DNA of 64,000 bases. Origin: Armatimonadota bacterium (GTDB taxonomy: Bacteria; Armatimonadota; Fimbriimonadia; Fimbriimonadales; Fimbriimonadaceae). The stretch lies in NCBI GenBank assembly GCA_016789105.1, contig JAEURN010000004.1, forward strand, positions 248,001-312,000. Direction: 5' to 3'. The translations under genes were made by a program, and so were the position numbers. The notes beneath the pieces were generated by a model. It ran no database searches. It saw nothing but the letters and a program-made list of their open reading frames with translations, and was not told where the DNA came from. This document shows, one piece after another, positions 178 through 1,275 of the stretch (position 1 is its first letter; each line of letters opens with the position of its first letter).

Positions 178-1275
178 GTGAGGCTCCGCTTTCAGTTGTT
201 GGCGACCTGTCCGCACACGGGGGCGCGGCGGGGCCGCATCCACACCGCGCATGGCACGGTGGAAACGCCGTGCTTCATGCCGGTTGGGACTCAGGGCAAC
301 GTCAAGACCGTCGGCAGCGAGGATTTGGAGCCGATGGGTTTTGAACTGGTTCTTTCCAACACCTACCATTTGAGCCTCCGGCCGGGCGAAGACCTTGTCC
401 ACCGTTTCGGCGGCCTCCACGATTTCATGGGTTGGCGGGGCGCAATTCTGACGGACAGCGGCGGCTACCAGGTGATGAGTCTCAGCGACCGGAACCTGAT
501 CGATGACGACGGCGTGACCTTCAAGAGCCATTTGGACGGCCGCGAGATCCACCTGACCCCGGAGCGCAGTATGGAGATCCAATCCAAACTCGGCGTGGAT
601 ATTGCCATGTGTTTGGACCAATGCCCGCCTTACCCTTGCTCCCGAGATGAAGCGGCCAGGGCCATGGCGCGCACCCACAAATGGCTTCCGCGCAATTTGG
701 CCGCCAAGGGCGGGCGAACCAACCTGTTTGGCATCGTGCAGGGGGGAGTCCACGAAGACCTCCGCCGGGAAAGCGCCGAGGTGGTCAGTGGCCTCGACTT
801 CGACGGTGTGGCCATCGGAGGCGTGAGCGTGGGCGAGCCCACAGAGATGCAGTACCCGGTCGTGCAGTTTACGGCCCCTCTGCTTCCAAAAGACAAACCC
901 CGGTACTTGATGGGCGTTGGGCACCCGCAAGACATCCTTCATGCCGTTTCGTGTGGAGTGGACATGTTCGACTGCGTCTTGCCAACCCGGATGGCCCGCC
1001 ACCACTGCCTTTATACGCTGCAGGGAAGGGTAAACGCGCTCAACCAAAGGTGGGCAGAACACAAGGGTTGGTTTGATGAAGGCAGTGTCTTCCCAGTGGC
1101 AGAGCGGTACTCGGCCGCCTATCTCCGCCATTTGTTCAAGGCTGGCGAACCGTACGGTGCCCGGCTTGCGAGTCTGCACAACCTCTCGTTTTATGCCCGC
1201 ATGATGGCGGAGGTTCGGAGCGCCATCGAGTGTGGGACGTGGCCCAGCCTAATGGCCCGTTACGCCCAGGCGTGA
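178..1275 (+). CDS. tgt: tRNA-guanine transglycosylase-like protein lacking the zinc cysteines
   Basis: Queuine/preQ1 tRNA-ribosyltransferase family, which exchanges G34 of GUN anticodons for a queuosine precursor. It is 365 residues, the usual length. Visible family features are DSGGYQ with the general acid/base Asp93, GIVQGG, AIGGVSVGE, and the nucleophile region MFDCVLPTR with Asp265. The start is GTG 178, with GGAGAG at 163-168 as ribosome-binding site. The C-terminal zinc site is abnormal. Where the family has C-x-C-x2-C, this protein has Ser303, Phe305 and Ala308, although the surrounding YSAAYLRHLF and the fourth ligand His334 (in LHNLSFY) align without gaps. The strand after the nucleophile (MARHHCLYT) is also divergent. 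Membership in the family is certain; activity on preQ1 or queuine is inferred. Confidence 0.9.
   Translation: MRLRFQLLATCPHTGARRGRIHTAHGTVETPCFMPVGTQGNVKTVGSEDLEPMGFELVLSNTYHLSLRPGEDLVHRFGGLHDFMGWRGAILTDSGGYQVMSLSDRNLIDDDGVTFKSHLDGREIHLTPERSMEIQSKLGVDIAMCLDQCPPYPCSRDEAARAMARTHKWLPRNLAAKGGRTNLFGIVQGGVHEDLRRESAEVVSGLDFDGVAIGGVSVGEPTEMQYPVVQFTAPLLPKDKPRYLMGVGHPQDILHAVSCGVDMFDCVLPTRMARHHCLYTLQGRVNALNQRWAEHKGWFDEGSVFPVAERYSAAYLRHLFKAGEPYGARLASLHNLSFYARMMAEVRSAIECGTWPSLMARYAQA

Follow-up and report, generated by a model that had tools for sequence, protein, structure and literature searches.

The window, a 64,000-nucleotide stretch of DNA from a genome of the Fimbriimonadaceae (Armatimonadota), carries near its left end the gene tgt, encoding a tRNA-guanine(34) transglycosylase (Tgt) of 365 amino acids with a GTG start (positions 178–1275; all features of the window described here lie on the plus strand). 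An inorganic pyrophosphatase gene (1289–1840) follows downstream and is mentioned for context only. The tgt product matched the NCBIfam equivalog Q_tRNA_tgt (TIGR00430) over its full length (residues 5–362) with 446 bits, the cut-off being 306.75 bits, and PF01702 with 470 bits; its score of 137 bits for archaeal TgtA (TIGR00432) fell short of the cut-off of 350. A search of the genome assembly, which is 99.96% complete, revealed no second Tgt, so that the gene is the sole copy.

An enzyme with its catalytic residues but no zinc cysteines

Alignment to the Zymomonas mobilis Tgt, gap-free in this region, bore out the original prediction that Ser303, Phe305 and Ala308 occupy the positions of the three zinc cysteines and that the fourth former ligand, His334 (codon 1177–1179), is kept and aligns with the zinc histidine. 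By codon arithmetic the former zinc loop, S303-V-F305-P-V-A308 at the C-x-C-x2-C position, spans 1084–1101, slightly upstream of the predicted location (1087–1107), the residues themselves having been named correctly; comparison with relatives agreed. Equally, the general acid/base Asp93 (454–456; Asp102 in Z. mobilis) and the nucleophile Asp265 (970–972; Asp280) were intact, as had been proposed, and invariant in the sets compared. The preQ1-type pocket is conserved as well, with Asp147, Cys149 and Val218 aligning with Asp156, Cys158 and Val233 of Z. mobilis Tgt.

The stretch MARHHCLYT, which the prediction had singled out as unusual, proved mostly ordinary. Both tRNA-contacting arginines, Arg271 and Arg274, are kept, and His275 is the commonest residue at its position among zinc-type Tgts (47/94). 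Only His276 stands out, being found in 19 of 24 members of the zinc-less clade described below vs. 2 of 94 zinc-type Tgts.

What the protein lacks is the structural zinc site, C-x-C-x2-C plus His, a customary rather than strictly defining trait of Tgts. The zinc domain has been described as a hallmark of these enzymes (PMC6165067), and zinc as required by them (PMC9508795). We treat the open reading frame as a variant inside the bacterial Tgt family, because the zinc site has been lost several times within that family and the equivalog score is far above the cut-off.

Loss of the zinc cysteines throughout a clade of Fimbriimonadales

We read the Tgt sequences of 36 Fimbriimonadaceae genomes, including the one under study, and of six genomes from a second family of the same order (f5). 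C-x-C-x2-C was absent from all 42, none of which kept more than one of the three zinc cysteines. The complete set of three cysteines and His was retained in the other three families of the order that were read (f2, f3 and f4; 9/9 Tgts), and likewise in each of the 27 distinct Tgts that were read from other Armatimonadota. On the tree the 42 zinc-less Tgts formed one clade (support 100/98), with f3, f4 and f2 as its successive zinc-type sisters. Judged from these sequences, the simplest history is one loss of the zinc site in the common ancestor of the two zinc-less families.

Ser303, Phe305 and His334 were invariant, and Asp300 nearly so, in 35 members of the Fimbriimonadaceae. In a wider set, just five internal positions, V140, Q225, S303, F305 and W355, carried a residue that is fixed throughout the clade but uncommon among zinc-type Tgts. 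With Ser303 and Phe305 fixed, the replacement is conserved and not drifting. Purifying selection was also evident, with dN/dS values of 0.03–0.05 in unsaturated pairs of close relatives.

The original prediction had named two observations that would overturn it, a sequencing error in the zinc loop and a second canonical Tgt that would make this gene a decayed copy. Neither was found, and an explanation by an error in sequencing or assembly, or by a copy in decay, was rejected as having next to no probability. Nothing spoke in its favour: the same replacements recur in 42 genomes, the reading frame is open throughout, the dN/dS values are low and a second copy is absent. The zinc-less protein is therefore real. 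It had been presented as one odd enzyme; the trait is inherited across an entire lineage and recurs elsewhere in bacteria.

Predicted fold, dimer interface and queuosine pathway

The AlphaFold model of the full-length Tgt had a mean pLDDT of 92.6, with a block mean of 88 for residues 301–310 and 97 for the helix after the loop. The equivalent loop of a zinc-type control Tgt reached 97, so that in the zinc-less protein the loop is predicted with somewhat less certainty. Compared with the Z. mobilis structure, the model gave Z 53 and 1.3–1.4 Å over 363 residues, zinc sub-domain included; the predicted TIM-barrel fold, together with the two catalytic aspartates, is what membership of the bacterial Tgt family calls for. 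In the Z. mobilis dimer, an aromatic cluster brings Phe92 together with Trp326, Tyr330 and His333 of the partner subunit (PMC5395182), and these three hot-spot residues come directly after the zinc loop. Their counterparts by alignment, Tyr311, Tyr315 and His318, lie at the start of the following helix (1108–1131), and the hot spot as a whole (Phe83, Trp86, Tyr311, Tyr315 and His318) is kept in sequence. Set beside known bacterial Tgts (TIGR00430; Z. mobilis 1pud, Thermotoga maritima 2ash), the Fimbriimonadaceae enzyme is thus alike in predicted fold, catalytic aspartates, preQ1 pocket, tRNA-contacting arginines and the aromatic residues of the dimer hot spot; unlike them, it has Ser303, Phe305 and Ala308 and no C-x-C-x2-C.

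Could His334 still bind a metal together with ligands other than cysteine or with nearby side chains, the site being altered and not lost? The invariance of His334 in the clade, and the near-invariance of acidic residues such as Asp300, would fit such a site. However, almost every Tgt has this histidine, so that its presence here is no sure sign of a metal. No additional Cys or His has become fixed in the zinc-less clade, a site of four ligands cannot be restored while Ser and Phe fill two of the ligand positions, and another zinc-less group (L246, L247 and L252, see below) has lost the zinc histidine too. We consider an altered metal site unlikely.

QueC, QueF, QueA and QueG are present in the genome under study, which settles the check for queA and queG that the original prediction had proposed, and in nearly all Fimbriimonadaceae relatives. 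Replacement of QueG by QueH was discarded as a candidate, no QueH being found in 61 genomes. These pathway genes bear on the possibility that the Tgt fold has been kept for a changed role, be it on another base, on another RNA or DNA, or as a non-catalytic partner. The zinc sub-domain of known Tgts contributes to tRNA binding (PMC6165067), and V140, Q225 and W355 are specific to the clade, as a new role might lead one to expect. Against this, the genome has no other Tgt and has kept QueC, QueF, QueA and QueG; the catalytic residues of the protein, those of its preQ1 pocket and Arg271/Arg274 are all intact; and its equivalog score clears the cut-off by a wide margin (446 vs. 307). A changed role is, if anything, a shade less likely still than an altered metal site. 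Between the two outcomes first envisaged, stabilization of the fold by other means is favoured by the confident fold, the conserved sites, the purifying selection and the Que genes, and the change of role is not.

Very probably, then, the gene encodes a working, preQ1-specific Tgt in which the zinc knuckle has been replaced by a metal-free core. The enzyme would exchange guanine 34 of GUN-anticodon tRNAs for preQ1, and its product would feed QueA and QueG. In the scenario that we envisage, the ancestor of the Fimbriimonadaceae and their sister family lost the structural C-x-C-x2-C/His site; the conserved Ser303 and Phe305 at the old ligand positions may have come to support metal-free packing, His334 staying in place, and the fold, the active site and presumably the dimer interface built on the zinc sub-domain would have been retained. 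A point against a working zinc-free Tgt is that E. coli Tgt was reported to need zinc for activity (Chong 1995, as cited in PMC9508795). Even so, the 'essential' zinc of Tgt seems replaceable in an enzyme that presumably still works, given that the sole Tgt of this genome is without the three cysteines, that the loss is lineage-wide, and that it is repeated in the Verrucomicrobiota.

Recurrence in Verrucomicrobiota and other zinc sites

A distant match, the Tgt of an Opitutaceae member (locus L123), was missing two zinc cysteines. Among Opitutales, 46 of the 50 loci read were without C-x-C-x2-C, in a graded series in which many kept the third cysteine alone and others none. Across a wider sample of Verrucomicrobiota the motif was kept in 59/70 loci, the exceptions being members of the Opitutales clade plus a small group, L246, L247 and L252, that has Gln in place of the zinc His in addition to the cysteine loss. 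These Tgts (L168–L210, L246, L247, L252) resemble those of the Fimbriimonadaceae in having lost two or three zinc cysteines. They differ in their replacements, which read Leu/Val-x-Asn-Tyr-x-Cys/Thr, or Gly-x-Pro with His to Gln, and on the tree they have an origin separate from the Fimbriimonadales loss.

How often the site was lost depends on the placement of two smaller groups. The best tree of 175 sequences needs five changes, and its starred branches force at least three. AU tests did not reject joining L206, L208, L209 and L210 with the Fimbriimonadales (p 0.49), nor joining L246, L247 and L252 with the Opitutales (p 0.49). Because merging of these groups thus stays unrejected, we take two to three independent losses as the safe minimum indicated by these sequences, with five on the best tree.

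Zinc sites of other proteins were also inspected. Zinc-free (C-) forms of the ribosomal proteins S4 and L31 are known in bacteria (PMC3087516), and L31 of the genome under study is of the cysteine-free type (L352, G000:C4:483000-483500), as were the other Fimbriimonadaceae members read (L312–L321), all lacking cysteines at the zinc positions; L31 was of the four-cysteine type in f2 to f5. Strict coupling of zinc-less Tgt to zinc-free L31 was rejected, as f5 combines zinc-less Tgt with four-cysteine L31. Zinc saving across the queuosine pathway is likewise unsupported: QueC kept the four cysteines of its zinc site (C-x6-12-C-x2-C-x2-C) in all 30 loci read, that of the genome under study among them. 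Fimbriimonadaceae may possibly tolerate the loss of zinc sites in general. The C- ribosomal proteins parallel Tgt in that a structural zinc site has gone and the protein is still used; unlike them, Tgt is a tRNA-modifying enzyme, and a sole copy rather than one of a pair of paralogues.

We found no earlier description of a zinc-less Tgt in the part of the open-access literature that was searched. On balance it is likely that zinc is dispensable in bacterial Tgts and has been replaced repeatedly by metal-free cores, which would define a class of zinc-free Tgts with lineage-specific solutions and possibly with changes in the stability of the dimer or in regulation when zinc is limiting. Natural zinc-free Tgts with differing replacements would offer test cases for the part of zinc in folding, dimer formation and tRNA binding, and would also show how a structural metal site can go while the protein stays. 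For the zinc-less lineages, errors would arise wherever an annotation pipeline or an estimate of the metal proteome counts one zinc for each Tgt.

Several further Tgt types were seen in the Verrucomicrobiota. The Tgts of L206, L208, L209 and L210 are divergent zinc-less proteins, set apart from other Verrucomicrobiota by a long branch, with V217, D219 and F220 in place of S, G and E in the base-recognition stretch. A separate type in Opitutales carries CVHPTR with an insertion behind it, and some of its members have a zinc-cysteine loss of their own (L214, L215 and L217 compared with L211–L213 and L216). Finally, some Opitutales and other Verrucomicrobiota have a second, long Tgt (L282:55-2103, L280, L283) with frames of ∼680–760 amino acids, in which CIIPTQ or CIIPNK replaces CVLPTR; that of L282 has an MnmC-like methyltransferase domain (PF05430) fused to its C terminus.
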